Assembly (NCBI GenBank): GCA_003167555.1
Contig: PMSN01000014.1
Location: forward strand, 1 to 64,000
Origin: Spartobacteria bacterium
Lineage (GTDB): Bacteria; Verrucomicrobiota; Verrucomicrobiia; Chthoniobacterales; UBA10450
Direction of reading: 5' to 3'
DNA: 64,000 nucleotides
Position numbers and translations under genes: made by a program
In this document: positions 35,099 to 57,043 of the stretch, in pieces
Layout: the number at the start of each line of letters is the position of its first letter
Numbering within the stretch: the stretch's first letter is position 1
Notes under the pieces: model-generated
The model's database searches: none
What the model was told of the DNA's origin: nothing
Seen by the model: the letters and a program-made list of their open reading frames with translations, nothing else

Positions 35099-35776
35099 AT
35101 GGCTAAGTCGTTCTATCTTCTCATCGCGGTGGCAACTGCTTTCGGCCTCTATGACTCACGGGCGGCCGATGAAGAGAAGCCTCATGGCCGGGTTTGCATT
35201 TCCGTGGTCGACGGCCCATCGGGAAAAGAGGAAGCGTTCAAGGCGTCCACGACCTACAGACCGGGCACAACGGTGCGCGCACATGTCGATGCGAGTAACA
35301 AATGCACGGTCCTCATTGCCGCGCTGACGAAGGACGGCAAGCTCGCCAACGGTTGGCGGCCGCAACTATCCGATGTGCCGGAGGAATTCGAAGACATTGA
35401 GCTGCCGAAAGCGCCCGTAACTTGGGATTGGGCAGCGGCCAGTGCGCCTTTCGATCTTTACGTCTTGTTCCTGCCTTCCAGTTCGAAAGAAGTCGAGGAA
35501 GCAAAGAAGCTAGTCGCAGCGATGCAGGCGCCGAAAATGGATGAGCGTCTCCTGGCCATGCAGACCAACAAACTGCGTGAGCTGATCGGCCGCATCACGA
35601 GCGAGAAGGAGAAAGTGAATCAGGCGCCAATGACCGATCCGGAAGTCGGCGGCGTTTTTCGCGGAGCAGGCGACGCGGCCTTTCCCTGGCGCCAGTTCGC
35701 GCAAAGCATCAATTTCGGTGACGATCGGCCGGGCGTCCTGGTTCTTTCCAGCGCAGGCGCAAAGAATTCTCCGTGA
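35099..35776 (+). CDS. Secreted protein of unknown function (possible DUF4384-like)
   Basis: 225 residues with an N-terminal signal peptide (KSFYLLIAVATAFGLYDSRA). The mature part begins with GRVCISVVDGPSGKEEAF and TYRPGTTVRAHVDASNKCTV, a beta-rich pattern reminiscent of DUF4384, then a helical region. ATG 35099 is chosen because it begins the signal peptide; the open frame upstream belongs to the kinase relic. Its stop overlaps the CHASE2-cyclase start (GTGATG), so the two are coupled. Probably acts at or outside the inner membrane with the CHASE2 sensor. Confidence 0.7.
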   Translation: MAKSFYLLIAVATAFGLYDSRAADEEKPHGRVCISVVDGPSGKEEAFKASTTYRPGTTVRAHVDASNKCTVLIAALTKDGKLANGWRPQLSDVPEEFEDIELPKAPVTWDWAAASAPFDLYVLFLPSSSKEVEEAKKLVAAMQAPKMDERLLAMQTNKLRELIGRITSEKEKVNQAPMTDPEVGGVFRGAGDAAFPWRQFAQSINFGDDRPGVLVLSSAGAKNSP

Positions 35777-37881
35777 TGGCCGGCAACTCGGTCCGGGCTA
35801 ACCCGACTGGCGAACAAGTCTGGTTGCGATCTCCGTGGCCGTTGCTTCTCACGCTCTGCGGCCTGGCCGCCATCTGCGTGCTGGCTTTTGGAAGTCCGCT
35901 CGAGCCGCTCGAGATGCGCTGGTTCGGCCAGGTCTTGCGCTGGCGCTATGAGCGAGGCCTGGCTCCTCCGGTCGACCCGACCATTGTTCATGTCGACATC
36001 ACGCGGACAGACATGGAGAAGCTACCGACCCTCGAGCTCGAGTATCAAAACGCGGCCAATATCATCCGACAAACTACCGAGCTAGGCGCTCGCGTCGTGG
36101 CGTTCGATATTGTTTTCACGCGCGGCAATCAAAGCATGGCCGAGCCAATCCTGAAAGAGGTCGAGCGGACTAAGAGCGAAAATCGGAGTGTTATTTTCGC
36201 GGAAGCGCTTCTGCCTTCCGCGGAGGATGGGAAAGAAGAACGCATTCGCTCCTTTCCGTTTCGAGAGCGCCTGCCATCGGCCGGCTTGATTCATGTAAAG
36301 GCTGACGGTGATGGAGTTCTGCGGCGTTACGACTATGTCCATATCAGCTCGGAGAAATTCGAGCCTTCGTTGGCACTGGCCAGCTATCTTGCCTGGCGGG
36401 ACGTGGCTTGGGACACGGGTGTTACTTTTCCGCGGCAAGGAATCTTGCGTTGGGAGGAGATATCGAGCGATTTCACTACGATCGAGCCGCGCGAGCTGAA
36501 GCTTGATCCAGTTCTCCTGAACTATCGCAGTCCCTGGTCGGGATCAGGACCCGCGGCCTTCCGGCATTATAGTGTGGCGCAGCTTACCTCCCTCTATGAC
36601 GCGAGCCGGAAGAACAACGCACAGCCATTGACCAATGCAGTCGTGTTCGTGGCGTATTCCGGAGCCGGGCTGGGGGACACTGGCACGACTTCGCTGGCGG
36701 CGAACCAGCCTCGTGTGCTCCTGCATTCCACCGCGCTGAACGACCTGATGCAGCGCAACTGGATTCGCCGAAGCCCGCGCTGGGTCGACACACTGGCGAT
36801 CTGCGGCGTCGTGCTACTAGGAGCTATCGCAACGTTTCTGCGCGGGACATTACCCTTATTGCTCTTCTGGATCGCCGGTCTGGTGCTGGCTGGCGTTCTG
36901 AGTTGCCTGTCCATTGTGAAGGCAGGATGGGTGCCGGGTTTGGTAAACGCGAGCGTAGTCTGGAGCCTTGTGACCTTCGTAGAATTAGGCAGACGCCAGA
37001 GCTACGAGTTCATGCAGCGGCTCAAGCTTCGCTCGACCATGAGCCTCTATTTTTCCCCGCACATCATGGAGCATGTGTTGAAGAATCCCGGCTCGATGGA
37101 ACCGCAGGAAGCCGAGATCACTGTGCTCCTGACCGACCTGCGAAATTCGACATCGATCGCTGAGTCGGTCGGACCTGATGGAATGTTTCAGCTCCTTAAC
37201 CACGTCTTCGAAGCCCAAACCAAAGCAATTCTGGCTGAGGATGGCAGCATGGAGCATTTCCTCGGCGACCAATTCATGAGCTACTGGGGCGCGCCCGACG
37301 CGCAACCGGATGCGGCCGATCGCGCGTTCCGCGCTGCGCTAGGCCTCATCGCCGGGATGGAAGAGCTCCGCCCGAAACTGGACCCGAAGGTAAAAGCACT
37401 TTTCGGTTACGGCGTTGCGCTCCACAGCGGAATGGCTCTCATCGGCAACAAAGGATCGGCGCAACGTTTGGATTACGGCCTTGTAGGAGACTTGATCAAT
37501 TCCGCGGCCCGAGTGGAATCGCTCACGAAACATTATGGCGTGTTATTCCTCATCACGCGTGAAGCATTTGCAAAGCTATCCCAGCCGCCGATTACGCGCT
37601 TGATTGACAAGGTGGTGGTCAAAGGCAAGACACTGCCGCTTGAATTGCTCGAAGTAAGGCATCCTTTCGGCCCGCCTAACTTCGAGGAGATCGCGGAGCG
37701 ATACAACGTGGCTTTTAGCGATTACGAAGCGGGAGACTTTGTCGCGGCGGAACAAAAGTTCGGCGCTCTCCGGGATGAGGAGAAGGATGCGCCCAGCGCG
37801 CTCATGGCTGATAGGTGTAGAGAATTGATTGCTGATCCGCCCAAGGATTGGAAGGGAATTTATGAACTCCGAACGAAGTAG
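35773..37881 (+). CDS. CHASE2-domain class III adenylate/guanylate cyclase
   Basis: 702 residues. A membrane helix (22-40), an extracytoplasmic CHASE2 sensor (about 55-330; VDPTIVHVDITRTDMEKL, GARVVAFDIVFT), three membrane helices (about 339-403) and a cytoplasmic class III cyclase domain (about 440-640). Metal-binding Asp455 (LLTDLRNST) and Asp499 (FLGDQFMSYWG) are both present, with GIGLHxG-like GVALHSGMALIGNKGS and GDLINSAARVE, so it should be active. It makes cAMP or cGMP in response to an outside signal. Second gene of the + strand operon, 33 bp before the TPR-CHAT gene. Confidence 0.92.
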   Translation: MMAGNSVRANPTGEQVWLRSPWPLLLTLCGLAAICVLAFGSPLEPLEMRWFGQVLRWRYERGLAPPVDPTIVHVDITRTDMEKLPTLELEYQNAANIIRQTTELGARVVAFDIVFTRGNQSMAEPILKEVERTKSENRSVIFAEALLPSAEDGKEERIRSFPFRERLPSAGLIHVKADGDGVLRRYDYVHISSEKFEPSLALASYLAWRDVAWDTGVTFPRQGILRWEEISSDFTTIEPRELKLDPVLLNYRSPWSGSGPAAFRHYSVAQLTSLYDASRKNNAQPLTNAVVFVAYSGAGLGDTGTTSLAANQPRVLLHSTALNDLMQRNWIRRSPRWVDTLAICGVVLLGAIATFLRGTLPLLLFWIAGLVLAGVLSCLSIVKAGWVPGLVNASVVWSLVTFVELGRRQSYEFMQRLKLRSTMSLYFSPHIMEHVLKNPGSMEPQEAEITVLLTDLRNSTSIAESVGPDGMFQLLNHVFEAQTKAILAEDGSMEHFLGDQFMSYWGAPDAQPDAADRAFRAALGLIAGMEELRPKLDPKVKALFGYGVALHSGMALIGNKGSAQRLDYGLVGDLINSAARVESLTKHYGVLFLITREAFAKLSQPPITRLIDKVVVKGKTLPLELLEVRHPFGPPNFEEIAERYNVAFSDYEAGDFVAAEQKFGALRDEEKDAPSALMADRCRELIADPPKDWKGIYELRTK

Positions 37882-37914
37882 CGGGTTGGATGGTCAAACA
37901 GAGGTGCAATTGTC

Positions 37915-40900
37915 ATGAAGGACAACGTCTTCACCATCACCATGAGGGTATTGATGGCTTCTGCCTTGGCTTTGTTCGCCGTAAGCCTTCCCTCCGGCGC
38001 TTGGGGCGAAGAGACGAAACCCGCGACGACTGCAACGCTTAAACCCGACCGTGCCCAACTTGAAGCGCAGTTCGCCAAGGCGAATGCCGATCGCACGGCG
38101 GCGAAGGAGAAGACTAAGGAGCGCGCCGACGCTGCCCGGAGCGCGATGCAGATCGCGTCGGATATAGCCTGGATGGCTTTCGATGCCGGGAAATTCGAGG
38201 AAGCTGCGAACTGGTTCGCCAAGAGCGCGGAACTTAAGGAGGACAGCCATGTCAACGCGCGTGGTTACTGGGAAGAAGATATTCGCATCCACGTCGCCGA
38301 GACAGAAGCGAAATTTGATCGCCAGATCAAGGACGCTCAAGCCAAGTTACCGACCGCGGAGGAATCCAAGAAGGCAACGCTCCGTCTGCTCATCGATACC
38401 TTGGAGAAGAACCGTCATACGACTCGCTACAACGACATCTCAATGCTGGAGAATGTGGCGCGGGAAAACAACGATACCGCCAGACTCCTCAAGTATGCGG
38501 AACAAGAGCTCGAGATCCGCCGCCTGGAGCTGGTTTACCTGGAGAAATCGAGCGCACCCAAGAAGGAAGCGGATTTGAAGAAGGTGCAGATCGCCACGTC
38601 GATGGAACGGGTGGCGGGCGCACAGGCAGACCTCGCCATGTTCGACCAGGCGGAGAAGAATTACCTCGAAGCGCTGGGGATCCGCCGCGCCCTACCCGAG
38701 GACCTGGCGGAACGGAAGCTGGAGGATGCCTTGAGCGCCCTCGGGCGAATGTACGTCCATAACGTCGGGGACCTTGTTAAGGCGCGCGACTACTACCAAC
38801 AGGCTCTGGCCGTTACTGAGGCCAGCGCCGCGTTGCGGCAGAAGGCGTTGGGCGAAGATTACTGGACGGCGGAACAGAAGGCGCAGATGTCGAAGGAGGA
38901 TCTGGCCAAGCACGAGGAAAGCCTCGCCCAGAATCGAGACATGACAGTAGCGCTCGATGCCCTCACGCAGGCGACGGTTCTGGCAAATCTCGGTGGTATT
39001 ATCGAAGAAGCGGGTGACTTGAAGAGCGCGCTCTCTTACTACGAGCGAGCGCTCAAGCTCGGCGATGCACTTCCACCGGGCGGGTACATCCATATCTTCG
39101 ACCTTTTCCGGGCCCGAATACGTGCGCGCGTCCTGGGCGATATCGCCTACCTTCATGCGGAGAGCGGCGAAGTGGATTTGGCGCTGAAAGAATTGAGCGA
39201 AGTGATTGCGATCAAGCGCAGCATTGGTGATGACGAGTGGACGGCACAATCGCTCCTCCAGGCCGCGGACCTTTCGCATAACAAAGGAGACACAGAGGCT
39301 GCCAGGCACAGCGTCGAACAAGCGCGCCAAATCTTCGCCGCGGCCCACAAACTAAATAGCGTGGTTTCCGCCACTGGCTTCCTGGCTGTGATCGCGCGAG
39401 ATGAGGGCAAACTGGACGAGGCCGCGCGTTTCGCGGAAGAGGCACTCGTGCTCGCACGCAAGACGGGCAACCTCGGAGCTATTTCCAGTTCGGCGCGAGC
39501 CTTTGCCTCGATCCGTGTGAAGCAAAACAAGCTCGCTGAAGCTAAGACGTTGATTGAAGAAGCGAAGGCGGCCGATGCAAAAACGAACTCTGTCGGCGAT
39601 CGTATCAGCACTCTCGGAATCGCCGGCGAGATTCTGGAAGCACAGGGGGACAACGCAAAGGCACTGGAGGCTTATCAGGAAGCGGTGAAGCTGGTCGAAA
39701 GCGTGCGCTCGACCGCCGCATCGGAAGCAGCGTTTGCCGACGTGAAGCGGAACTATCGCCCGTACGAACGCATCGTGCGGATCTTGATCAAGCTGAATCG
39801 ACCGGAGGACGCGTTTGATTACCTCAATCGCGCGAAGTCGAAGAAGCTCCAGGATTCGCTCCGCCTTTCCAGCATGAAGAGTGAAGACAAGGGCGTTCAG
39901 ACATTGCTGGAAAAGGCTAGTGGCGAAGAGAACAAGCTAAAGGCGGCGACCGCACAACGCGAGAGCGAGCAAGCCAAGCCGAAGGATCAGCAGGACAAAG
40001 CGAAGATCGAGAGTCTTAGCCGGGTAGTAGCTACTACTCAGGCAGAATGTTTTCGGCTCAACGAGCAGATCAAGGCCTCTAATCCGCACTGGGAAAAATT
40101 CATGACCCTCAATCCGGAGTCGCTCAAGAAGGCGCAAAAGCGCATTCCGCCAGAAGTGATGCTCATCCAATACGCGCCACTGGGCGAGGAGCTTTATGTC
40201 TTTCTCGTTACCAGGACGAGCATGAAGATCCTCATCGCGCCCGGCAAGCCGGCTGATCTCTTTAAGAAAATCCTCGCGGTCCGAAAGCAGATTACAACGG
40301 GTGAAACAGAAGGGCCGTTGACCAAGAACCTGACAGGACTCTACGATACGCTCATCGCGCCGGTTGAAGCCGACATTGCCCCTGTCAAGGTGATCGCTTT
40401 CATCCCGAACGGGCTCCTTTACTACCTTCCGATGCAGGCGCTGGCGAAGAAGAATGCCAGCGGCGAGATAAGATACCTTATCGAGGACAAACAGATCGTT
40501 TACTTAACCGCCGCTGACGTAATGAATGCGGTGCAGCCACCCGACGAGGAGAAGGCGCGCGACGGCATGCTGGCATTTGGCAATCCGACCGGGGCAAATC
40601 TGCCCTCGGCCGAGGAGGAAGTGAAAGGCATCGCCCAAGTCTTTCCGTCGACGGAAGTCTTATTTGGGCCGGATGTGACAAAGAAAGCGCTGGGAGCTGA
40701 GGAAAAGCTCAGCAAACGGATAGTTCACTTTGCTACCCACGGCATTCTCAATGCCTCGGCGCCGCTGGAGAGCTACATCCAATTAGCCGCTTCTGACTCT
40801 CCTGATTTGTCGCATCTTACCTTGGGGGAGATAGGGGGCCTTCCCTTTAACAAAGTGGACCTGGTTACGTTGTCGGCCTGCGAGACGGCAGTAGGAAACA

Positions 40901-41157
40901 AGGAACCTGATGGCGGCGAGGTCACTACTTTGGCCCATGCCTTTTCGAGCGCGGGAGCGACGACCGTCTTGGCGAGCTTGTGGAGCGTAGGCGACGAGAG
41001 CACCAAGGAGTTCATGGTGGAGTTTTACCGTCAGCTTGCATCCGGTGCGTCGAAAGCCGCGGCACTGCAAAGCGCCCAGATCAAGCTGCTGAAGAGCGCC
41101 AAGTTTTCGCGTCCACTTTATTGGGCGCCTTTTGTTCTCATGGGTGACTGGCGCTAG
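37915..41157 (+). CDS. Exported TPR-CHAT caspase-like protease
   Basis: 1,080 residues. A signal peptide (VLMASALALFAVSLPSGAWG) is followed by about 600 residues of TPR-like helical repeats, a coiled coil around 660-720, and a C-terminal CHAT domain. The caspase-type dyad is intact: His942 in VHFATHG and Cys989 in LSACETA, with LASLWSVGDEST and PLYWAPFVLMGDW. CHAT proteases are the effectors of several bacterial regulated-death pathways; here export suggests an envelope location. Follows the CHASE2 cyclase in the same operon. Confidence 0.92.
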   Translation: MKDNVFTITMRVLMASALALFAVSLPSGAWGEETKPATTATLKPDRAQLEAQFAKANADRTAAKEKTKERADAARSAMQIASDIAWMAFDAGKFEEAANWFAKSAELKEDSHVNARGYWEEDIRIHVAETEAKFDRQIKDAQAKLPTAEESKKATLRLLIDTLEKNRHTTRYNDISMLENVARENNDTARLLKYAEQELEIRRLELVYLEKSSAPKKEADLKKVQIATSMERVAGAQADLAMFDQAEKNYLEALGIRRALPEDLAERKLEDALSALGRMYVHNVGDLVKARDYYQQALAVTEASAALRQKALGEDYWTAEQKAQMSKEDLAKHEESLAQNRDMTVALDALTQATVLANLGGIIEEAGDLKSALSYYERALKLGDALPPGGYIHIFDLFRARIRARVLGDIAYLHAESGEVDLALKELSEVIAIKRSIGDDEWTAQSLLQAADLSHNKGDTEAARHSVEQARQIFAAAHKLNSVVSATGFLAVIARDEGKLDEAARFAEEALVLARKTGNLGAISSSARAFASIRVKQNKLAEAKTLIEEAKAADAKTNSVGDRISTLGIAGEILEAQGDNAKALEAYQEAVKLVESVRSTAASEAAFADVKRNYRPYERIVRILIKLNRPEDAFDYLNRAKSKKLQDSLRLSSMKSEDKGVQTLLEKASGEENKLKAATAQRESEQAKPKDQQDKAKIESLSRVVATTQAECFRLNEQIKASNPHWEKFMTLNPESLKKAQKRIPPEVMLIQYAPLGEELYVFLVTRTSMKILIAPGKPADLFKKILAVRKQITTGETEGPLTKNLTGLYDTLIAPVEADIAPVKVIAFIPNGLLYYLPMQALAKKNASGEIRYLIEDKQIVYLTAADVMNAVQPPDEEKARDGMLAFGNPTGANLPSAEEEVKGIAQVFPSTEVLFGPDVTKKALGAEEKLSKRIVHFATHGILNASAPLESYIQLAASDSPDLSHLTLGEIGGLPFNKVDLVTLSACETAVGNKEPDGGEVTTLAHAFSSAGATTVLASLWSVGDESTKEFMVEFYRQLASGASKAAALQSAQIKLLKSAKFSRPLYWAPFVLMGDWR

Positions 41158-41243
41158 GCGGGCGCCATTGCGGTTGTTGAGCTATCGTAGCGCTTGTCAA
41201 AGTGCACACGAATTGATAGGCGGTTACGCGCAGTGTCAATCGT

Positions 41244-43169
41244 ATGACCCACGCCAGCGAATTAGAAAAGGAAGCCAGCCAGGAACCATCGCCGGATAGA
41301 ACCGCGCGGGACTTGCCCTCCGGCTACAGGTATTGGGCATTCATCAGCTACAGCCATCGCGATGAGCAATCGGCGAAATGGCTGCACGAGGGAATCGAGA
41401 CCTATCGAATCCCGCGTGCGCTGGTGGGCAAGCCATTGCAGGGCGGTTCGACGCCCCGTCGAATGTTCCCGCTCTTTCGGGACCGCGACGAGTTACCAGG
41501 CGCCGCGGAGTTGGGAGCGCAGATTCGCCAGGCCCTCGAACAATCGCTTTACCTCATCGTCATCTGCTCTCCGCGAGCCGCTGTTTCCCCGTGGGTGAGC
41601 CAGGAGGTGCAGGCTTTCAAGGCGCTGGGAAGGGAAGATCGTGTCCTCTGTCTGATCATCGATGGCGAACCCAATGCCGATCTAAGTCTCGGAGAACTGG
41701 AATGCTTTCCTCTCGCTGTGCGCTTCAAGGTGAACGCAGCGGGAGAGCTCAAGAGCGAACCGACCGAGCCGATCGCGGCCGATGCGCGCACGGGAAAGGA
41801 CGGCAAGGCGAACGCGAGACTCAAACTTCTCGCTGGCATGCTGCGAGTAGGCTTTGACCAACTGCACCAGCGTGAGCGCCAGCGTGCCTTGCGCCGGCGC
41901 CTTCGCTTGTCGCTTGCGAGCCTGGCCTTGGGGATATTGATGTTGGCCGGATACATGGCGCTGGCAGATCTGGGAGTGGGCGTTCCGGGCGGCGAACGTA
42001 TTCGGAGAATATTCGATGGCTTCGATTCGTCCTTCTTTCGCCCCATCGCGAACGATGCGACCATCCGTCGCGCGGCACGCGACACGCGCTATGCTACCTC
42101 CGCCGTTTTGCTCGATGTCTGGCGAAAAGGTAATCGGTTTGTCTTTGAGAGCCCAAGTCGACGAGGCCACCCGCAAACTCTCCAGGTATGGAATGTCTCT
42201 CAGGCCCTCAGTGGTTTATTACGCTCACCCGATCTGACACCGGAACAATTGCACGGACTTATCACAGAACTCAACGTGACCTTCGCTCCGGACCTCCTGA
42301 TTGAAGCCGGTGAAAAGAAATACGGGTTCCTCTCCACTAGCGGCCTTTACACTCAGGCCGAAGCTACACTGTGGAATGTCACCGCCATCTCGATGGCATT
42401 AGGCCGCCCGGGACTGGTCGGAGGTGAAGAACGCAAGCGATTGGAGCAACGGCTGGTCGAGGTGCAGAGCCATCTTGCACTCTACTGGGATCCCGTGACT
42501 GGAGGATGGAACACCTACCCCAACCAACTTACGCCTGCCTATCACGAGACTTATACTGCTGCGCTGGCGTTGCTGACCCTTCTGGAGGTGCGCGAGGCCA
42601 ACCTCCCATGGGTAGGTGACATTGTTCTTCGGGACCGGATGCTCAATAGGACAGCGGAGTGGCTTATCAGCCAGTGGAATCCCGCGGGTGATTCCCCTGG
42701 CTGGCGCGGCGCGGTCGATGATGAGGCGCCTGTTTCCGATGGCCTCACAATTCAAATTTATAGTGAACTGCTTCGTGCCGAGGCTGAATGTGGCCTGGTC
42801 ATCCCGGCGCCGATACTCGATGCCATTCCACGCCATTTGCTGCGCCTGATCGGTCGTTCCCTAGACTCTGCGCCGAGCGTGGGCCGGTTTAGCCGTGCCT
42901 TCATCAATCACGAAGGCCAGTCATTCGACATCAATCCGTCAGTTAATTGTCTCTGGCACCCGTGGGCGATCTACTCGGTTCGGTGCTGGCTAAACCGTCT
43001 AGATACTCATCCGGGGTCCCGCGAGCAACGAACACAAATGCGGCGGGTTTTCAGCTACCTGATCGTCAACCTTGGGGTCGAACTTAAAGCAAAGATCGAC
43101 CACGACTCGGTCCCATCATTCATGGCGGCCGAAACGATGTACGCCTATTCCAGGATTTCGTTTCCGTGA
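41244..43169 (+). CDS. TIR domain - membrane helix - large C-terminal domain protein
   Basis: 641 residues. A TIR-like domain at about 28-165 (WAFISYSHRDEQSAKWLHE, FRDRDELPG, LIVICSPRAAVSPWVSQEVQ; the Glu in WVSQEVQ is the candidate NADase residue). A basic stretch and one membrane helix (about 228-250, SLALGILMLAGYMALA) follow. The outer 390 residues are helical with spaced TAALALLTLLE-like repeats, resembling alpha/alpha-toroid proteins, but I cannot name the family. Last gene of the + strand operon, 86 bp after TPR-CHAT and converging on the - strand conflict genes. The topology puts TIR in the cytoplasm and the C-terminal domain outside. Confidence 0.8.
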   Translation: MTHASELEKEASQEPSPDRTARDLPSGYRYWAFISYSHRDEQSAKWLHEGIETYRIPRALVGKPLQGGSTPRRMFPLFRDRDELPGAAELGAQIRQALEQSLYLIVICSPRAAVSPWVSQEVQAFKALGREDRVLCLIIDGEPNADLSLGELECFPLAVRFKVNAAGELKSEPTEPIAADARTGKDGKANARLKLLAGMLRVGFDQLHQRERQRALRRRLRLSLASLALGILMLAGYMALADLGVGVPGGERIRRIFDGFDSSFFRPIANDATIRRAARDTRYATSAVLLDVWRKGNRFVFESPSRRGHPQTLQVWNVSQALSGLLRSPDLTPEQLHGLITELNVTFAPDLLIEAGEKKYGFLSTSGLYTQAEATLWNVTAISMALGRPGLVGGEERKRLEQRLVEVQSHLALYWDPVTGGWNTYPNQLTPAYHETYTAALALLTLLEVREANLPWVGDIVLRDRMLNRTAEWLISQWNPAGDSPGWRGAVDDEAPVSDGLTIQIYSELLRAEAECGLVIPAPILDAIPRHLLRLIGRSLDSAPSVGRFSRAFINHEGQSFDINPSVNCLWHPWAIYSVRCWLNRLDTHPGSREQRTQMRRVFSYLIVNLGVELKAKIDHDSVPSFMAAETMYAYSRISFP

Positions 43170-43354
43170 GAATCTTGTCGGTGGATTTGGGTCTCGACTT
43201 CGATGCGATCTTGTCCCAAAACGGTGTTGGTGAAAACCGTTCTTCTTCTTGCGGCAGTCTTAGCTTCGAGCTATGACATGGACCTTCCGCAATCACCAGG
43301 CGGCGTGGTGTCTGGTAACACGAAATAACTCACGAAACTGTGCAAACATTGTAA

Positions 43355-43814
43355 ATGAATCCAGCAATGCAGCCTGGGCTTATCGCGGGAGTAGCTGCGA
43401 TAGGAGGATCGGTGGTTGGGGCACTGGCGTCGCTGGGGACGACGTTTATCAATCAGCGGCTCCAAGCGTGCCGCGAGCGCTTAACCAAAGACCTGGCGAA
43501 TCGTGAGGAACTCTACGGAGGCTTTATCGAGGAGATCATCCCGTTATTCGTCGATTCCATCAACTGTACGACAATAGATCCGTCGAAACTCTTGAATCTT
43601 TACTCGATGGTGGCGCGCATTCGTTTGATTTCGAGCGACGAACGTATTGCATGGCGCCGAAAAAGTGGTGGCCGACCTGATAAAATCTTACCGGCAACCT
43701 GTCCGAGACATGAGCGAGATCATTTATCACGTTAGCCACGATGCCCTGGATCCAATGCGTGAATTTACCCAGGCATGTCGCCAGGAACGGAGCGTGATCC
43801 TACGACAGTTATAA
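43355..43814 (+). pseudogene. Small membrane-anchored protein gene with a frameshift
   Basis: N-terminal anchor (LIAGVAAIGGSVVGALASLG) followed by a charged helical part (NREELYGGFIEEIIPL, LLNLYSMVARIRLISSDERIA). The frame then runs off into unlike sequence, whereas another frame from about 43658 continues as EKVVADLIKSYRQPVRDMSE up to a TAA at 43812-43814. One extra base near 43657 explains this. Intact relatives of about 150 residues are common in soil bacteria; function unknown. Confidence 0.6.
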
Positions 43815-43822
43815 CCGATGCC

Positions 43823-44740
43823 CTACGGTCTGGACACCGGTCGAGTAGGAGTGCGGACAGGCTCAGCGCCCAGGCCGCCACCAACGCCCAGGTAAATGCT
43901 GGGGGGATTGTCGTCACCACTTTGCACGATGGCTGCGGTAAGGCCGAAGCGCTTTCCTCGCCATTGGACGCCTGCTGCCCAGGGAGTAAATTCGTCCTTC
44001 CTTTTCGCGAACTGCGTGACCTCTCCTATCAGGTAAAAATTATGTGGCAGCTGGACCTCGACGCCGCCGTAGAACCGGTTCGTGTTTCTATCTGGCGCCT
44101 GGAGCCACGATTCACGAAATCCTCCCTGGAAGGTCACTGTTTTTAAACATCCTTTCTCATCTATCGGCACGGTCTTTGAGACAGCGAGATAAACGTTCGA
44201 AGAATCGAAGTTGTCCGTTCCCATCTTGGAGTAAGCGCCCAGGCTTATTTCCGGCCACCATTCGCGATCGCGGACTAACCGGATCCTGGCCATCGGTCCG
44301 CCCGTGCCATAAGAACCTTCCGGAACTTCGCCACCGCTGGTCCTGAAGTTAAACATGTTGGCAACGAAACCTAGCTCCAGCCAGTCGCGCACGCCGTAGC
44401 TGAAATACATCGCGTGTCCGAGGATGTCCGTGTCCTGGTTGGTAAGAACGAGGCAGTAGCCAAAACCGAATGTGCCTTGTGCCAGGGTGGCGGAAGTCGG
44501 GTTGAGAAACATGCCCGATGGGCCTTCCAGGGTAATCATTCCGCGCGATTCCCGCGCCGCAACTGGAACTTCCACGATGGGTCCTTCCTTGGAATCAGAA
44601 AGGACGTCCGAACCGGCCAGACTCGCGCTTGCGATGAGCGCGACGATCAATGCGGTTGCAAAGCCAGACTTGATCAAGCCGAGTCGCGGCGGGGCACCGC
44701 GTCGGTTGATCGGAAGAGGCGTCAAGCGAAATGAAAGCAT
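43823..44740 (-). CDS. Putative outer-membrane beta-barrel protein (YjbH-like start)
   Basis: 305 residues with a long N-terminal region ending in a signal peptide (ATALIVALIASASLAGS). The mature protein opens with LEGPSGMFLNPTSATLAQGT, a pattern seen in YjbH/exopolysaccharide-type barrels, and then shows alternating amphipathic strands (FGFGYCLVL, MYFSYGVRDWLELGFVANMF, FYGGVEVQLPHNFYLIGEV). It lies 94 bp after the patatin gene on the same strand, so it may be the last gene of that operon or independent. Role unknown. Confidence 0.7.
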   Translation of the reverse strand: MLSFRLTPLPINRRGAPPRLGLIKSGFATALIVALIASASLAGSDVLSDSKEGPIVEVPVAARESRGMITLEGPSGMFLNPTSATLAQGTFGFGYCLVLTNQDTDILGHAMYFSYGVRDWLELGFVANMFNFRTSGGEVPEGSYGTGGPMARIRLVRDREWWPEISLGAYSKMGTDNFDSSNVYLAVSKTVPIDEKGCLKTVTFQGGFRESWLQAPDRNTNRFYGGVEVQLPHNFYLIGEVTQFAKRKDEFTPWAAGVQWRGKRFGLTAAIVQSGDDNPPSIYLGVGGGLGAEPVRTPTRPVSRP

Positions 44741-44834
44741 CCCGCTATCTTGAGGACGGAGAGATGAGAGTCAATCGTAATCCTTCACGGGCATCTGATC
44801 TTCCCAGGCCGCTGAGCGATGTCCTGTTCTACCG

Positions 44835-45914
44835 CTACTGCAAGTGCTCCGCTCGCACGTGCTCTTCAGCGTAACGCGCGCCTAGTTCACGAAGGTAGGG
44901 GATGAGCTCGAGGTTGTCGAGCGTGATGCCGCTCTTACTCGTTCGTTTGGCTGAACTCAATTCATCCTGGGTGAAGAGATGATCGTAACGGACATAACTG
45001 AATTGCTTCCGATCCACATCGGCTGGCTCTCCGTGCAAATCTCCCAGTTCGGAATCGATAGGAGCGCCTTCTTTGCAGTAGCCGATCGTTCTGCACATGA
45101 TGTCTTGTTGCAAGCTGATCGAATCCATTAGCGCCATGGGGACAGAGCGCGCGGTGAAGAGCAGGTTCATCTGCTCACCTCGCAGCAGGCCGGCGCCCGT
45201 CCGCTCGCGTCCAGTGCCGATGGAAACGAGAAGCATGTTGTTGACGCCAGTGGCCCAGTTGAGCTTGTAGCAAGGCAACGTGGCCATGGAAAATAACAGG
45301 AACGCGGGGTTGTTATAGGGCGTGATGGCACCGTCGACAAAGACCTGCCGGATGCCACCCAGCACGATTGTCTCGGGCGGAAAGTAAACCGGCGCGGCGG
45401 TGCTGGCCCGGACGAGCTGCCAAAGGGGAAGGTGCAAGTTACAATTCGCTCGAGCAAGATCGTTGAATTTTGCCGCCGGATTATTCGAGACGGGCCACGG
45501 CGAGCCGGTCGTGTGATTGCGCATGACAAGAGTAAGGAGGGTGCGCAACTTCTTGGTGCTAAGTAACGCGGGGACCTTGCCTTCGCCATCTTCGGAGAAG
45601 ACGACCTTGAACATGTTTGTGATCGCCTCCGCCTCGAACTTGTTCCAGAAGCGCCGGTAGAGAGGCGCCGGGCGAAAGATTTCGACGGCGCGGGTAGTAT
45701 AAAGCTCCTGCACCTCGGCCACAGTCATGCCCCAGGAAAGACAAGTCGCGATGATCGCGCCGGTGCTGGTACCGGCGATATAATCGAAGTAATCGGCGAG
45801 AACGAGATCCGGCTGGCTGCGTTGCTGACGCAAGTGCGCTTCGATTCGCGCAAGGATTTCGAGCGAGAATACTCCGCGAATTCCTCCCCCATCGAGCGCA
45901 AGCAGTCTCTTCAT
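44835..45914 (-). CDS. Patatin-like phospholipase (CapV-type architecture)
   Basis: 359 residues, patatin fold from the first residue. Oxyanion loop GGGIRG (9-14), nucleophile Ser50 in GTSTG, and Asp194 in VDGA complete the dyad, so it should be an active lipid acyl hydrolase. No signal peptide: cytoplasmic, acting on the inner membrane. The length and order resemble CBASS effector CapV and other defence patatins. It is 13 bp behind the SLOG-4TM gene, the last of four tightly packed genes. No CD-NTase is present, so a different trigger is expected. Confidence 0.9.
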   Translation of the reverse strand: MKRLLALDGGGIRGVFSLEILARIEAHLRQQRSQPDLVLADYFDYIAGTSTGAIIATCLSWGMTVAEVQELYTTRAVEIFRPAPLYRRFWNKFEAEAITNMFKVVFSEDGEGKVPALLSTKKLRTLLTLVMRNHTTGSPWPVSNNPAAKFNDLARANCNLHLPLWQLVRASTAAPVYFPPETIVLGGIRQVFVDGAITPYNNPAFLLFSMATLPCYKLNWATGVNNMLLVSIGTGRERTGAGLLRGEQMNLLFTARSVPMALMDSISLQQDIMCRTIGYCKEGAPIDSELGDLHGEPADVDRKQFSYVRYDHLFTQDELSSAKRTSKSGITLDNLELIPYLRELGARYAEEHVRAEHLQ

Positions 45915-45927
45915 CGTTCTCGTCCGT

Positions 45928-47409
45928 TTATTGGAATCGCGGGTTCCGGAAAAGCACAAACCATTCGAGAAATTCCTGCGCGAAAAGTTTCTCCGCCTTT
46001 TCCACCGCGTTCTGCAAGGTCACAATGTTTTCGGATTGCACAATTTGATTCCGTGCCGCGGTCAGTCGTTTTGTCATTTCGTGGGAGCGCGCCAGTTGCC
46101 GATGCAAGTCGAAGATTGAGATTAACGACAAGGCACAGCCGGCGGCAAGTGGTAATGCAAACGGCAGAAAGGAGGCGACAACTCGACCTAGCTCAGGATT
46201 GAAGCGATTTACTCCAACCGTCGCGACGAAGATGCCTCGCGTGATTGCCAGCCCGGAGAAGAGCCAGAACGCCGGTGTGAGAATCAAAAGCATTCTGCGC
46301 AGCGCCCGGCTCCGTTTGCTGAAATAATTTATCTGCGAATCGATTCGGGTCCGCAGATAATGTTCCTTCCAGGCGAGCAAATCGCTTGCCTGCGGCGGGG
46401 GCGAACTCGAGCGCAGGACACGTAAAGATTTGGCCAGCCGCGCGAAGCCTTGCAGCTCCCGAAACCAGAAGGGCGCCACTACGACCGGCAGATCCCAAGT
46501 AGCCAACACGGAGCGGCACATCTCCGCACCCACTCGGCAGCGCATCCACGTGTGATGCGCGTCCTTGCGTTTCACGTAGGCGATCGCCAGGGTCGCCAAG
46601 GCGACCAGCAGGAAGATGAGCAAGTCGAGCAGACCCGAATTCAAGCCCAGGCCAATCGCGGCGGCGGTCAGGGCGACAGCGACGGTATTCATGAGCAGCG
46701 ACGCGGCGACCCATCGCCGAAAATTAGGAGCGATCCGCGTCGCCACGGCATCTACCTTTTGGAAGAAGCGCTCGATATGTTGCTTTGGACTCTCGCCATC
46801 CATCGAAGGCGCTTGTTTACTCCTTAAGTGATTCAGGAAGCTAAACTCCGGATCCATGAACGTGTCGTCGCGAAACGATTCGCGCTCCACCTTGAGCTGG
46901 TCGGGGTGAATCAGGATGATTGGCTTATTCTGCATTCGCGCATACGCCACGACTTCCGCTGTTCCGCCAAGGCCGCGCGCCGGCTCGCCATCCCACACCG
47001 TCATCAAAACATCGGCCTCGTCCACGGTGCGCAGCCCGCAGCGGAGATAAGCCGCGGGCCGATCGTCTGAGGTGCCAGAGATCTCAACGTCCATGGCCCG
47101 GCTTAACAACTCAGTGACGTGCGACCATTGGCTCTCGCTAAAGTCATTTCGGAATTCAGCGGGCGAAAACGGGAGCGCCGCCACCCACGGTATCTTCAGC
47201 GACTGGCAAGCTTCGGCAAAAAGAGTGTCGGCTCCGATCGCGGCCGAGGCATATCCGACGATCTCGCCCGGCACTTCCCTGCGCAGCACTTCGAGTTCTT
47301 CGCGAATGACTCTGCCCACAGCTACAGGGTTCTTCAAATCTCTATGACCGGTGAAGGCAACTACCCAAAACGGCGACAGCTGGGCGTCATCGCCGTTCGA
47401 GTGTTTCAT
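45928..47409 (-). CDS. SLOG/LOG-like domain fused to a four-helix membrane domain (SLATT/DUF4231-like)
   Basis: 493 residues. Residues 14-170 form a Rossmann-like SLOG domain: FTGHRDLKNP, ASAAIGADTLFAEAC, WDGEPARGLGGTAEVVAYA and PIILIHPD. SLOG domains bind nucleotide-derived ligands, for example cyclic ADP-ribose products in Thoeris. Four membrane helices follow in two pairs (about 233-254, 260-278, 372-395, 410-432) separated by a helical region with WMRCRVGAEMCRS, similar to SLATT/DUF4231 proteins proposed to form pores. Starts inside the stop of the nSTAND gene (ATGA overlap). Best reading: a ligand-gated membrane effector; this is inferred from domain order. Confidence 0.75.
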   Translation of the reverse strand: MKHSNGDDAQLSPFWVVAFTGHRDLKNPVAVGRVIREELEVLRREVPGEIVGYASAAIGADTLFAEACQSLKIPWVAALPFSPAEFRNDFSESQWSHVTELLSRAMDVEISGTSDDRPAAYLRCGLRTVDEADVLMTVWDGEPARGLGGTAEVVAYARMQNKPIILIHPDQLKVERESFRDDTFMDPEFSFLNHLRSKQAPSMDGESPKQHIERFFQKVDAVATRIAPNFRRWVAASLLMNTVAVALTAAAIGLGLNSGLLDLLIFLLVALATLAIAYVKRKDAHHTWMRCRVGAEMCRSVLATWDLPVVVAPFWFRELQGFARLAKSLRVLRSSSPPPQASDLLAWKEHYLRTRIDSQINYFSKRSRALRRMLLILTPAFWLFSGLAITRGIFVATVGVNRFNPELGRVVASFLPFALPLAAGCALSLISIFDLHRQLARSHEMTKRLTAARNQIVQSENIVTLQNAVEKAEKLFAQEFLEWFVLFRNPRFQ

Positions 47410-50021
47410 AGCTGGCCGCGCAGGTCTGGTTTGTTGTGTTCGCGCGCCTTACCGATTGCATCATCCAGCAAAACCAGCACTGGATCGATCTGAGCGTTGT
47501 AAAGTCCGGAGCGCCGAATCAACTCGGCGTCGCGCTTTACCGTCTCAAGGGAGCCGGCAGCTCCTTCCTGCGCCAGGAATTGAATCATCTCCTGTAGCTG
47601 CGGTAAAGCGCTCGATTCATTGCGAAGGGTAGCCAGCAGCGGCGAATAGGTCCGGCGCGAAAGCGAATCGCTGCCCCACGAAAGCCTGGATGCTTCTTCC
47701 CAAAGCTTGGAAGCTTCTTTCGAGTTACCCTGAAGGGCCCGCCCGATGCCCAGGCGAAAAGCCGAAAAGGCGTAAGGATCCTTTTCGTATGCTTCTTCCA
47801 AGTGTCGAACAGCTTCTCCGAGAAGGGCTGGGTCCGGCAGCTTTTCCTTTTCCAGAAGCATGTAAGCGAGATTCATGTGGGTGAGAGAATCGAGCCGCTT
47901 CATGTTTGAGCCGACGAGACTTTTGAAGAACTCAATCGCCCGAGGATCGTTGCGGTCCTGCATGTAGATCGCGGTCGCGAGCCGAAAGCGCGCGATGACT
48001 GCACCCGGGTTAGCTCCAATGGCGCGGTCAAATTCCTGCATGGCGAGTCCGTAGTGACCCAGGCTCAGGTAAACTGTTCCTAACCCAGCGTGCGCGCCAT
48101 AGCTGGGTGTGTTTCGTTGCCGGGCGGCCTCCAGCGCTTTTACATATTGGTCCATGGCCAGATGAAACCGGCCCTGTTCGAGTTGAATGTTGCCGTAACC
48201 TATGTGCGGGTCCGGCGATTCCGGATCGGTCGCCTCGGCCTGTTTATAAAGCGCTTCGGCCTTGGGAAAATCCGGGTCCGCTCCGAGGGCGTAAACGTCC
48301 CCAAGGCCAACATAAGCCTGGGCTAGCTTGGCCTGGCCTGCGTAATGTTGGGCGGCCGTCGCATTTTTCATCTTTTCGATTTCGACTGCCTTGTCGTAGG
48401 CCTTGATCGCGTCCGATAGGATAGGTGTGTTTCGTGCATCGCCTGCGCCATAAGCCTGGCGGACAAGGACGTCTCCTATCCCAAACCAGGCTTCCGCTTC
48501 GGAAGGCTTGAGTTGCGCTGCCTCTTTGAACTTCTCCAACGCCGGCTGATACTCTCCTGCTTCAAGCATGAAGTTACCTATATCGACCAGCTCGCGAAAC
48601 TTGATTTCCTGTCGGGTGCGATAGGCATAAGTCACCAAGGCCGTGCAACCGAGGAGCAACACCGCCACAACCGTCAGCGCAATTCTTCGCTGCCGGCGCA
48701 GCCGTTGCTGTTGGCGGCGAGCGAGGCGCGCGTTTGCCTCGCGCTCGCGACGGTTAACACGACTAGCCGAAGCTACCGCGGTGAGAACATCGTGAGTTAG
48801 CTCCACTCGCCGAACGCCGCCTCTTTCCTCCACGACAAGAAGGCGTCGTTCTACCAGGTCGAGAATCGCATTCGAGGCGGCGTCGCTCGGCAAACCGCCG
48901 CGAACAAGCTCCGCTTCCGCAGTGTCGAGAGTAACAGCCTGGCGAAAGCCGGACTCGGATAGCAGCCGGTCTTCGACAAACTCGCGCACTGCGGCGGGAT
49001 GATTCGCGAAGGTATCGAAATAGAACTTTTCGAGAATGTGCCCGCTACATCCTTCGAGTTGCTCAGCGGTGATTGTTTCTTCGCCGGCCGCGAGACGCTG
49101 GGCGTTTAGCTCGGCGCACATAAGACTGAGGAGGGGCGGCACGGCATCGATTTCACTGAGTGGCACGTCGGAGCGGACTCCCGCGATAAAACGCACGATA
49201 GCAGCCGCGATTTCTCCGGAGACAATCGGTGGCTTATCGAGACGCAGACTGCCAGGCTCCGTCACGGCTTGCACCGCCTGGACGCCGCTCAAAGGACGCA
49301 GCTCCATTCTGTTATCCATCAAGGCGGGGAGTTGCCAGCGCCACCGTTCCAAGAGGTGAAGAAAATCCTCGCGCAATGATAGCAGCACCTTTGCCGGATG
49401 AGCATGATAGTCGACCCTCTCGGCCAGCTGATCGTTGCTTTCAATTTCGGCGCGGACCTGCGACGGCATCCGATTTTCGACAATCGCCGCCAGAGTCTCA
49501 CGAAAATCTTCAGCCATTTGCCGGCGCGCTTCGCCGAGTGTGAAAATCTCCTCGAACTGATCGAAAATGAAGACCGGGCGAACTACTGGCGCGCCATCCT
49601 CATTGATGAATCCGAACTCCGCGTCGTGGAGAAGCAACCAAAGGCTCGTCGCTCCGGCGCACGCTGCGGAGAGATCGTCGCGTCCGGCGAGTTGCAGCTC
49701 CGCGCGGAGGGCTTCGACCATTTGCTGGCCGGGCGATGCCGCGTCCTCTTCGTAACGCAAACGAATCCGCACCGGGAGAAGGCCGGACGCGCGCAGTTTG
49801 GGAATAAGGCCAGCCTGAATAAGGGACGTTTTCCCCAGGCCCGATTGCCCGAACAAAACCGTGAGCGGCTTGTGCAGCACGCGCTCGAAAAAATCTTGAA
49901 GCTCTGCGTTTCGGCCGAAGAAATAACCTTGCGTCTCCTCGGTGAAGGAGCGCAGACCCAGCCACGGTGACTCCGGATCCGCGCCGAACACACGGGCCGT
50001 GATCCTATCGGCCGAGCTCAT
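47406..50021 (-). CDS. nSTAND-type NTPase with membrane helix and TPR repeats
   Basis: 871 residues. The N-terminal segment SPWLGLRSFTEETQGYFFGR is the typical opening of nSTAND1 ATPases; Walker A is GQSGLGKT (58-65) and Walker B VFIFDQFEEIF (Asp154). A winged-helix-like region with ELTHDVLTAV leads to a basic stretch, one membrane helix (about 445-465) and TPR repeats filling the rest. STAND proteins are signal-sensing switches that oligomerise on NTP binding; the TPRs would be the sensor or scaffold. It overlaps the SIR2-TIR gene upstream and the SLOG gene downstream by 4 bp each, so the three are made together. Confidence 0.92.
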   Translation of the reverse strand: MSSADRITARVFGADPESPWLGLRSFTEETQGYFFGRNAELQDFFERVLHKPLTVLFGQSGLGKTSLIQAGLIPKLRASGLLPVRIRLRYEEDAASPGQQMVEALRAELQLAGRDDLSAACAGATSLWLLLHDAEFGFINEDGAPVVRPVFIFDQFEEIFTLGEARRQMAEDFRETLAAIVENRMPSQVRAEIESNDQLAERVDYHAHPAKVLLSLREDFLHLLERWRWQLPALMDNRMELRPLSGVQAVQAVTEPGSLRLDKPPIVSGEIAAAIVRFIAGVRSDVPLSEIDAVPPLLSLMCAELNAQRLAAGEETITAEQLEGCSGHILEKFYFDTFANHPAAVREFVEDRLLSESGFRQAVTLDTAEAELVRGGLPSDAASNAILDLVERRLLVVEERGGVRRVELTHDVLTAVASASRVNRREREANARLARRQQQRLRRQRRIALTVVAVLLLGCTALVTYAYRTRQEIKFRELVDIGNFMLEAGEYQPALEKFKEAAQLKPSEAEAWFGIGDVLVRQAYGAGDARNTPILSDAIKAYDKAVEIEKMKNATAAQHYAGQAKLAQAYVGLGDVYALGADPDFPKAEALYKQAEATDPESPDPHIGYGNIQLEQGRFHLAMDQYVKALEAARQRNTPSYGAHAGLGTVYLSLGHYGLAMQEFDRAIGANPGAVIARFRLATAIYMQDRNDPRAIEFFKSLVGSNMKRLDSLTHMNLAYMLLEKEKLPDPALLGEAVRHLEEAYEKDPYAFSAFRLGIGRALQGNSKEASKLWEEASRLSWGSDSLSRRTYSPLLATLRNESSALPQLQEMIQFLAQEGAAGSLETVKRDAELIRRSGLYNAQIDPVLVLLDDAIGKAREHNKPDLRGQL

Positions 50022-51385
50022 TGGTCCAGAGCGGACAGCCGCTTTTGCTGCAACGCGTGCAGATACTTTCCAAAGTCTTCGGTGACTTCGCCGCTTGCCA
50101 GGCGAGTAGCTTGGACGCGTCGAAAAGTGCGGGGCTCCCGCTGGGTGGAGAGAGGCGAATCATCGATCACGACTGGAATGTAATACTCTTCGCCTTCGGA
50201 AAACATGGCCTGCCGTTCCGAAGCCCAATTGCGTTCCTGATGAAAATAGCCGGACGGCGCGCCTTCCGTTGTGCGAGAAATCACGGAGAGAAACAGAGAA
50301 CACCGGCCCTTCACTTCATCTTGCAAATGATTATGCCAGTTTCCACCTGGTTTGAGTCGGTCGCGGTCATACCACACCGTACAGCCGTGCCGCTCCAAGC
50401 CCGCCTTTAATCTCCGCGCCGCATCCTCATCTTCCCGGGCATAGCTCAGGAAGATCGCACCCTTCGGCATCTCCAGCTCGGGCGGGAGCACGAACTCGCT
50501 CGGCGTGCCTTCCGCCGGTGGATGCTTTTCGCGCCAACGACTGGCCAGTTCCGCGACGAACTCCGCCGGATCGGCCGCGACCACCTGGATGTTTCGGCTT
50601 ACTCCGCCGAAAAAGAGCACCATGCTTTCGGGGACAGTTCCGGCTGATCCTACCGCCAAGACTTCCGTGTTGGACCTGGATTCGGAAAGACGCGACTGCT
50701 TGGTGATGCGCAGGAAGAAACGGACCAGCCAGTCCGAGAAGTTCAAGCCGAGAATAAGCAAGCCATGTTCCTTGAGATCGCGCGCCAGTTTCTCCATCCC
50801 TGGCAGGTGTTGGTGGAGTGCGCAGACAAATTCGAGTGCATCTTCCTCCCACACCACATACTCCGGGCTCGGCGAAACACAGCCCAGAAGATGGTAGACG
50901 GTGGCGCGGCTCAGCTCGATTTTGCGCGCGGGAAGATCCTTGTCCGCGGCTTCAGGGAAAAAAGAAAGCCGCTGGGTGAGAGCTTGTCCGCCATAGCGTT
51001 CCGCGTTGAGCGCGTTTTCGAGTAATGGATCAAAGGTCGTCGTTAAGAAGAGATTAAAGGCGGAGATCGAAGCCAGCTCACGCAAAGTCGTGCCGGGTGT
51101 CGGGCATTCGTCGCGAAGCACGCGGTGCAGTCGAGTGTAAATTACATTCCGCGCGCCACCGTTAAGGAGGTGACGGCAGACAACGTCGTTGAGCGTCGGG
51201 TTTTCGGAAAGTTGGCCGGGAGGCACTTGAAGTTTTTCGGCCAGGCGTTTTGCCAGCCATTGGTAAAGATTGCTGTCATCATCGCCAAAGGTGACGATCG
51301 ATTCACCGATCACGGGGATAACCTTCCCCTCTTCGATGAAAATCAGAAGGTCTTCCCAGAAATCGGAATCGGTCGGTATAGCCAC
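50018..51385 (-). CDS. SIR2-like and TIR domain fusion protein
   Basis: 455 residues. Residues 1-270 are a SIR2_2-like Rossmann domain: VIPVIGESIV (nucleotide loop), FLTTTFDPLLENAL, VYHLLGCVSPSPEYVVWEED and LLILGLNFSDWLVRFFL. Two positions that are Asn and His in active SIR2 NADases (TTNYD, LHG) appear as Thr and Leu here, though a nearby His165 remains. Residues 308-440 are a TIR domain (GAIFLSYAREDEDAA, GCTVWYDRDRLKPGGNW, YFHQERNWASER with candidate catalytic Glu384 or Glu390). The fusion pairs two NAD-acting folds. First gene of the four-gene cassette; a 130-bp gap before it may contain its promoter. Confidence 0.88.
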   Translation of the reverse strand: MAIPTDSDFWEDLLIFIEEGKVIPVIGESIVTFGDDDSNLYQWLAKRLAEKLQVPPGQLSENPTLNDVVCRHLLNGGARNVIYTRLHRVLRDECPTPGTTLRELASISAFNLFLTTTFDPLLENALNAERYGGQALTQRLSFFPEAADKDLPARKIELSRATVYHLLGCVSPSPEYVVWEEDALEFVCALHQHLPGMEKLARDLKEHGLLILGLNFSDWLVRFFLRITKQSRLSESRSNTEVLAVGSAGTVPESMVLFFGGVSRNIQVVAADPAEFVAELASRWREKHPPAEGTPSEFVLPPELEMPKGAIFLSYAREDEDAARRLKAGLERHGCTVWYDRDRLKPGGNWHNHLQDEVKGRCSLFLSVISRTTEGAPSGYFHQERNWASERQAMFSEGEEYYIPVVIDDSPLSTQREPRTFRRVQATRLASGEVTEDFGKYLHALQQKRLSALDQ

Positions 51386-51515
51386 AGAAGATCAGGTTGC
51401 GCCCTAGACTCTGTCGGCAACTGCGACAAAGCGCAAACCTCGATCGAACGAATGAAGATGGCGTTCGTGAATGCGGCGGCATTCCGGCCTGAACCGCTCG
51501 AAGTGAAGGTCGAGC

Positions 51516-51806
51516 CTAGTGGGCGGAGAGGAACCTGATCAGGAACAGGATCGTGATTCCCAGAAGCGCTGTTCCTGCGTAACCGATGACGAGACCAACG
51601 ACGGCCACGCATTTTCCCAATGATCCGCTCGTGTTCTTTCTTACTTCCACCAGGGCCATGTGCCCGCAGATGATTGAGGGCACGGAAGTAAGTCCGAAGG
51701 TCAGCAGCGAAAAGATGCCCAGCGTAAAGGTCCAGATGGGAAGAGCAGATAGCTCCTCCTCGGGCGACTCAAACGCTCCGGGCATTGCGGCTGAAGATTC
51801 CATCAT
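51516..51806 (-). CDS. DUF4190-type small membrane protein
   Basis: About 96 residues from the double Met at 51806. Two membrane helices flank SIICGHMALVEVRKNTSGSLG, the typical DUF4190 pattern in which a GHxAL.ri motif sits between helices. Function unknown; such proteins are common accessory membrane proteins. The codon at 51869 would overlap the preceding gene by 19 bp. Confidence 0.75.
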   Translation of the reverse strand: MMESSAAMPGAFESPEEELSALPIWTFTLGIFSLLTFGLTSVPSIICGHMALVEVRKNTSGSLGKCVAVVGLVIGYAGTALLGITILFLIRFLSAH

Positions 51807-51850
51807 AGTGGGACTATGACGGATAACAGCAAAGCCTTTGCAACCGATTG

Positions 51851-53050: not shown

Positions 53051-53067
53051 CGAGTATTAGTTCCTAA

Positions 53068-56352: not shown

Positions 56353-56784
56353 TCAAAGATCGAGACCCATCGGAAATGCGCCTGGGATTTCTTCCCAGCC
56401 ATTGCGGAGCCAGAACGAGCGTCCCAAGTCGTTTTCTCCGGCCACAAGGATGATCGCTCGTTTCACGCCGGTGCCACGCAGCTTTGTGACGCATTCGTCG
56501 AGCAGACGATTGCCAATTCTCTGCCCGCGATGTGTGAGCGCGACCGCCAGATGATAGATCCATGCGCGCCGGCCATCGTGACCGCAGAGGACCGCGCCAA
56601 CGATTTTACCGTTCTCTTCCGCGACGCGACTAAGACCCGGATTGCGGAGAAGGTAAGTGCGGATGTCTTCTTTGGCGTCGCCTTCGGCTACTTCTACTCC
56701 TTCCACCGCCTTCCAAAGCGCCGTGGCCCCATCGTAATCGTCGATGGTAAACTCTCTGGTGGTGATCGAAGCCACGTCGTTCAA
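56353..56784 (-). CDS. GNAT family N-acetyltransferase
   Basis: About 143 residues. GNAT fold: ITTREFTIDDYDGATALW, GKIVGAVLCGHDGRRAWIYH, LAVALTHRGQRIGNRLLDE (acetyl-CoA loop with RGQRIGN) and AGENDLGRSFWLRNGWEEI. Similar to RimI-like or YpeA-type proteins. TTG 56784 has AAGG 10 bases upstream; GTG 56775 is an alternative. The open frame further upstream only reads across tRNA-Arg. Substrate unknown. Confidence 0.88.
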   Translation of the reverse strand: MNDVASITTREFTIDDYDGATALWKAVEGVEVAEGDAKEDIRTYLLRNPGLSRVAEENGKIVGAVLCGHDGRRAWIYHLAVALTHRGQRIGNRLLDECVTKLRGTGVKRAIILVAGENDLGRSFWLRNGWEEIPGAFPMGLDL

Positions 56785-56826
56785 TTTCGAGAAACCTTTT
56801 CCGCCCCGCGGTTCACGCCGGCACGA

Positions 56827-56900
56827 CGTGCCTGGAGGGATTCGAACCCCCAACCTGCTGATCCGAAGTCAGCTGCTCTATCCAGTTGAGCTACAGACAC
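56827..56900 (-). tRNA. tRNA-Arg (anticodon TCG)
   Basis: Cloverleaf on the - strand: acceptor GTGTCTG/CAGGCAC, D-arm with GCTC/GAGC, anticodon stem GCTGA/TCAGC with loop CTTCGGA, T-arm GGGGG/CCCTC around TTCGAAT, discriminator G. CCA not encoded. It borders the conflict island by about 1.2 kb, though no integrase is seen. Confidence 0.95.
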
Positions 56901-57043
56901 AGTTTGTTGCCCCCGCCAAGTTTCACGGAACTGCCGCGGCAGTGCAACCCTGTTCGGAGATGAATCAGCGCACACGAACAAATTCTTTCGCTCATCCGCG
57001 GTCAAGCGCTCGCATTTCTGTCCTCCACGGTTTACGTTCGGCG

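Follow-up and report, generated by a model that had tools for sequence, protein, structure and literature searches.

Characterised bacterial TIR immune proteins, as described in the open-licence literature we searched, act on signals inside the cell. An outside domain connected by one membrane helix to a cytoplasmic TIR is the layout of animal Toll-like receptors, and CHASE2 and other swappable extracytoplasmic sensors are known to join varied outputs, including class III cyclases. DUF4062 (Swarozyc) has recently been reported to act in antiphage defence as a TIR-like NADase (PMC13174449). Here we describe a protein from a soil bacterium of the Chthoniobacterales (Verrucomicrobiota) that combines a TIR domain with a membrane helix and a large helical ring. 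Its gene lies in the window, i.e. the 64,000 nucleotide stretch of contig PMSN01000014.1, from a 4.2 Mb genome assembly, analysed throughout this work. Our search of the open-licence literature with few terms returned no description of a TIR-transmembrane-toroid protein.

Profiles of the bacterial TIR NADases of the ThsB-like/TIR_2 type match the TIR domain of the window protein, and the Glu of the WxxxE motif is conserved. In contrast to the ThsB-like enzymes, the window protein is predicted to be membrane-anchored and carries a large external toroid, and no adjacent ThsA partner of the SIR2-SLOG type was found. A canonical Thoeris system was rejected, as the nearest SIR2 gene encodes a SIR2-TIR protein 6.8 kb off on the other strand and PADLOC matches to ThsA and ThsB were weak. 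With Toll-like receptors the protein has its predicted topology in common, but the order is reversed, the TIR being N-terminal and a C-terminal helical toroid replacing the N-terminal leucine-rich-repeat ectodomain; the protein is thus no member of that family, and there is no sign of common descent of the architecture. Compared with CHASE2-type sensors the toroid has an unrelated fold, is not in Pfam and is much rarer. DUF4062 is a separate family, and the window protein bears a regular TIR. A related toroid protein (L048) begins with a DUF4062-like stretch (E 0.0017, below cut-off), and a DUF4062-TPR gene occupies the slot of the TIR-toroid gene in one sister genome (G003). As a type, the protein belongs with known bacterial TIR proteins and modular membrane receptors; what it adds is an uncatalogued sensor-type domain.

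The TIR domain and predicted membrane topology

The gene and the features of its product are listed below.

41244-43169, plus strand: protein of 641 aa with TIR, membrane helix and external toroid (open reading frame, ATG start)
41331-41738, plus strand: TIR domain, residues about 30-165 (TIR_2 E=1.5e-10; invariant blocks in alignment A1)
41592-41606, plus strand: WVSQE motif, W117 to E121, with the putative catalytic Glu (alignment of homologues)
41907-41963, plus strand: single predicted transmembrane helix, residues 222-240, positive-inside (hydropathy 2.02)
42042-43166, plus strand: external (alpha/alpha)6 toroid as modelled, residues about 267-641, ~375 aa (AlphaFold model, VIA-align Z 27.5, alignment A3)

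As the full-length homologues in alignment A1 (n=4) are 40-42% identical across the whole protein, 41244-43169 is no chance open reading frame. A first-pass annotation, made from the sequence, had described an N-terminal TIR-like domain with a WVSQEVQ glutamate, and both were borne out. Residues 33-155 are matched by the Pfam profiles TIR_2 (42 bits at a curated cut-off of 28) and ThsB_TIR (E=3.5e-7; 31 bits at a cut-off of 21.2), while NCBIfam gave no match on the whole protein. The blocks FISYSH, FRDR, CS..A and WVxxE are invariant in A1. The glutamate in question is E121 (codon 41604-41606), which all four full-length homologues share and which is also present in the other TIR segments compared; the loss of the TIR active site across homologues, which the annotation had named as evidence against its own reading, was therefore not seen. 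The position of W117 is taken by Tyr in the toroid homologue L035 and in a WD40-type paralogue (G000 C23) from the window's own genome, in which two paralogues carry the same TIR module fused to WD40 repeats. A weak phmmer match (E=0.044) furthermore aligns WVSQE with the WxxxE region of the flax L6 TIR, whose structure is solved. By profile and conserved WxxxE Glu the TIR domain is of the NAD-cleaving type, its catalysis being putative.

The one membrane helix of the earlier annotation corresponds to a single hydrophobic segment flanked by seven K/R among the 15 residues on its N-terminal side and by three on the other, on account of which an N-in/C-out orientation is predicted. From this charge bias around one helix, the TIR would be cytoplasmic and the C-terminal domain would lie outside. 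A single helix predicted to be N-in/C-out precedes the outside domain in TIR and nSTAND members alike.

Fold of the external domain and comparison with enzymes

The C-terminal 390 residues match no profile in Pfam or NCBIfam, and searches of PDB sequences with the external domain returned antibody noise or nothing, none of it a credible match, in line with the first-pass annotation, which had left this part unnamed. The same annotation had read a helical outer domain with toroid-like repeats and had proposed structure prediction with a fold search as a check. A domain-only AlphaFold model, built with the 11-sequence alignment A3, reached a pLDDT of 85.6 and a pTM of 0.90 and displays twelve helices alternating between outer and inner positions, so that the external domain, as modelled, is an (alpha/alpha)6 toroid; a model lacking the toroid did not result. 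The best match in VIA-align was cellobiose 2-epimerase 5zig (Z 27.5, rmsd 3.1, 320 residues), squalene-hopene cyclases scored a Z of about 25 (8pak 25.3) and GH76 mannanases 22-23, and Z values over many (alpha/alpha)6 proteins ran from 21 to 27. In Foldseek it was again this group of folds that matched, with E near 1e-3. The full-length AlphaFold model was poor (pLDDT 64.6), and its Foldseek matches to transcobalamin and complement are superseded by the domain-only model.

In (alpha/alpha)6 barrels the inner helices have the binding site at their N-terminal ends. These ends carry many of the conserved residues of the external domain, namely W316/Q320, W377, Y437, G500/T502/Q504, W571/W574 and E630 (protein numbering), and their mean conservation is 2.72 bits versus 2.23 bits overall, a difference matched by 4 of 391 circular label shifts. 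At this conserved end of the ring lie E381, which is invariant among the 11 sequences, and positions 124 and 250, which are mostly acidic (model numbering); D215 is nearly invariant.

Sugar epimerases, glycoside hydrolases and terpene cyclases being the nearest folds, the toroid might instead work in the periplasm as an active enzyme on carbohydrates or lipids, anchored by the TIR part, with the TIR only scaffolding or reporting. These acidic residues would suit such an enzyme, and a transpeptidase/class D beta-lactamase-like gene located 8 bp after the TIR-toroid gene of L005 hints at envelope chemistry. The family signatures, however, argue against it. While the external domain, as modelled, has the (alpha/alpha)6 barrel of the AGE/cellobiose 2-epimerases, no His column corresponding to their catalytic histidines is conserved in the 11 sequences (the best, on an outer helix, reaches 7/11), and the GlcNAc_2-epim profile matches a single one of the 11 members, at E 0.011. 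The DxDD motif of class II terpene/squalene-hopene cyclases is missing in nine sequences and present only in L038 and L039. Membership in the AGE epimerases and in the terpene cyclases was rejected on these grounds. The external domain has the fold in common with both; it is about 10-15% identical to these enzymes, has neither a conserved His nor a conserved DxDD, and is membrane-tethered to signalling domains. As the swapping among three different cytoplasmic outputs described below also suits a sensor better, we regard an active periplasmic enzyme as quite unlikely.

Output partners of the external domain and a candidate receptor

A single-sequence scan of the genome contigs gave no relatives of the external domain, which were recovered only by subsequent profile scans, from 10 genomes of Verrucomicrobiota and a further MAG (L044). 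The latter is titled 'Bordetella parapertussis isolate TH-11nov19-107', a species title that may be wrong, and it is the only positive among the 369 genomes of its class. No relatives were found in plasmids, phages or viral contigs, the last scanned with the full-length profile. Six of the external domains are partnered N-terminally by a TIR (the window protein, L004, L005, L023, L035 and L044) and three by a class III cyclase (L038, L039 and L040), for which Guanylate_cyc matches at 5.8e-7 in L040 and at 0.005, below cut-off, in L038, while L039 was assigned as a close relative of L038. One more (L036/L048) combines nSTAND1 (2.1e-83) with the preceding DUF4062-like stretch mentioned above, and the distant toroid protein of L041 (L041:1474-3690) has three hydrophobic segments after an unnamed N-terminal domain. 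The external domain is joined to each output type via a membrane segment. A tree of the 11 outside domains separates the TIR-linked from the cyclase-linked group with 90/95 support and is otherwise mostly unresolved, which makes the number of output exchanges uncertain.

An outside domain that stays fixed beyond the membrane helix while its inner partner varies is the usual mark of a sensor. The pairing of one outside domain with TIR, cyclase and DUF4062-like/nSTAND1 outputs across genomes therefore supports a modular sensor-type domain, whose ligand control of the output is putative. This exchange independently backs the sensing domain proposed by the first-pass annotation together with a cytoplasmic TIR, a proposal also supported by topology, fold and TIR motif. 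The output-swapped external domain is new here and uncatalogued.

Our favoured reading, which we consider probable with some reserve, is that the protein spans the inner membrane once and serves as a receptor whose TIR NADase in the cytoplasm is switched by a ligand from outside, both ligand and activity being putative. It starts from the observed domain order, the positive-inside helix, the toroid model, the conservation of E121 and the exchange of outputs. The two WD40-linked paralogues of the TIR module in the window's genome, and the SIR2-TIR and nSTAND1 genes that come directly after the TIR-toroid gene in L044, also speak for it. The C-terminal toroid would bind its ligand outside the cytoplasm at the conserved ring end, and binding or ligand-driven clustering would alter TIR assembly through the membrane helix, signalling in this direction being presumed as well. 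The TIR might then cleave NAD+, yielding ADP-ribose or a cyclic ADP-ribose signal, or recruit partners, and could act in a conflict or stress response with the neighbouring CHASE2-cyclase, CHAT, SIR2-TIR, nSTAND, SLATT and patatin genes. The receptor reading is weakened by a fold that is best known from enzymes, by E381 and the acids at 124 and 250 at the conserved end, by the Tyr in place of W117 in one toroid homologue and by the rarity of the domain (10 Verrucomicrobiota genomes). If it is true, a ring domain that controls a TIR from outside and also feeds cyclases and STAND NTPases would give bacteria a receptor layout functionally parallel to animal Toll receptors. With a new sensor-type domain defined, the ligand can be sought directly, and the conserved ring end makes the ligand question testable.

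Genomic neighbourhood of the TIR-toroid gene

The genes surrounding the TIR-toroid gene in the window are as follows.

35099-35776, plus strand: small protein whose N-terminus has a hydrophobic, signal-like segment (start codon uncertain); opens the triad (65-72% identity, next to the cyclase, in six sister genomes)
35773-37881, plus strand: CHASE2-class III nucleotide cyclase, overlapping the preceding gene (CHASE2 3.9e-30, Guanylate_cyc 7.7e-11; orthologues 73-79%)
37915-41157, plus strand: TPR-CHAT protein, signal-like at its N-terminus, with a His/Cys dyad recognised by eye as HG and SAC (CHAT 2e-68; orthologues 67-77%)
43823-44740, minus strand: predicted outer-membrane-type protein (weak YjbH, 8.9e-5), kept beside nSTAND in G003 and G007
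44835-45959, minus strand: patatin-like phospholipase, CBASS-effector-like (Pfam 1.4e-23; NF041079 1.6e-30, below cut-off)
45928-47409, minus strand: SLATT protein of the membrane effector type, its N-terminal part SLOG-like by eye (SLATT_1 2.6e-6; NF033634 above cut-off)
47406-50021, minus strand: nSTAND1 NTPase with TPR (nSTAND1 1e-32)
50018-51385, minus strand: SIR2_2-TIR protein (TIR_2 2.8e-17, SIR2_2 1e-10; 39% to the L044 protein)
51851-53050, minus strand: CobW_C protein (CobW_C 1.8e-20)
53068-53922, minus strand: subtilase (Peptidase_S8 8.8e-24)

The triad of small protein, CHASE2-cyclase and TPR-CHAT (35099-41157) is conserved in the genus, six sister genomes having it with identities of 65-79%, and in most of them the CobW_C/subtilase pair (51851-53922) lies beyond it, near CHAT. 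The stretch between them (41158-51850) varies: here it holds the TIR-toroid gene on the plus strand and the YjbH-like, patatin, SLATT, nSTAND1-TPR and SIR2-TIR genes on the minus strand, in G003 a DUF4062-TPR gene, and in G007 a TPR-S-cyclase and another gene. In G007 the triad has the nSTAND1, SIR2-TIR and YjbH-like genes next to it; in G003 these three and the patatin gene are located elsewhere. Location in this variable stretch after CHASE2-cyclase/CHAT, where sisters carry DUF4062-TPR or TPR-S-cyclase, supports the receptor reading.

L044 has a SIR2-TIR gene (39% identical to that of the window) no more than about 100 bp after its TIR-toroid gene, with nSTAND1 (40%) next in line, so that TIR-toroid meets SIR2-TIR/nSTAND1 in two distant settings. 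Near the toroid genes of L004, L005, L023 and L035, by contrast, we found no homologues of the window's defence-type neighbours and no CHAT or CHASE2-cyclase orthologues, which weakens the receptor reading. From these mixed contexts, the tie of the TIR-toroid gene to its surroundings is only suggestive. It is quite possible that the gene is stand-alone cargo, inserted by chance beside CHASE2-cyclase/CHAT and with no functional tie to the genes around it; the protein itself could still be a receptor. Sister genomes have CHASE2-cyclase/CHAT without a toroid gene, toroid genes elsewhere occur without CHASE2-cyclase/CHAT, and a stem resembling a terminator is located close to the end of CHAT, though such matches are at shuffled expectation; on the other hand, the same slot is repeatedly filled by conflict-type genes in the sisters, and the SIR2-TIR and nSTAND1 genes recur beside the toroid gene in the distant L044.

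The CHAT gene ends 86 bp upstream of the TIR-toroid gene, and the signal-like N-terminus of its product would fit a docking partner. The protein might be an adaptor or scaffold whose TIR lacks NADase activity, its toroid serving as a protein docking platform, e.g. for the TPR-CHAT protein. Complement thioester domains are toroids that bind proteins, and such protein-binding toroids are among the structural matches. Yet E121 is kept in all homologues compared, and the four loci without nearby CHAT or CHASE2-cyclase orthologues do not fit a CHAT platform, so that we judge a mere adaptor distinctly improbable.

Returning to the receptor reading, a bolder and rather unlikely form of it is a bacterial Toll-like receptor, whose toroid would sense an envelope- or invader-derived glycan or lipid and whose TIR NADase signal would activate SIR2-TIR, SLATT or patatin, while in relatives the same sensor would drive a cyclase or STAND NTPase.

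Further observations concern the wider gene context. SIR2-TIR and nSTAND1 (with TPR or WD40 tail) form a conserved adjacent pair in seven other loci (L044, L063, L065-L069), and the L044 contig also bears a caspase-FGE gene. At L028:8488-11167 a TIR-toroid gene is likewise followed 8 bp on by a gene for a secreted transpeptidase/class D beta-lactamase-like protein, with STFK, YGN and KTG motifs by eye. Within the window, the product of 56744-58546 is of the matrixin type, and its C-terminal region (about 334-596) is met again close to other loci of the genus (L027, L063, L065 and L086).
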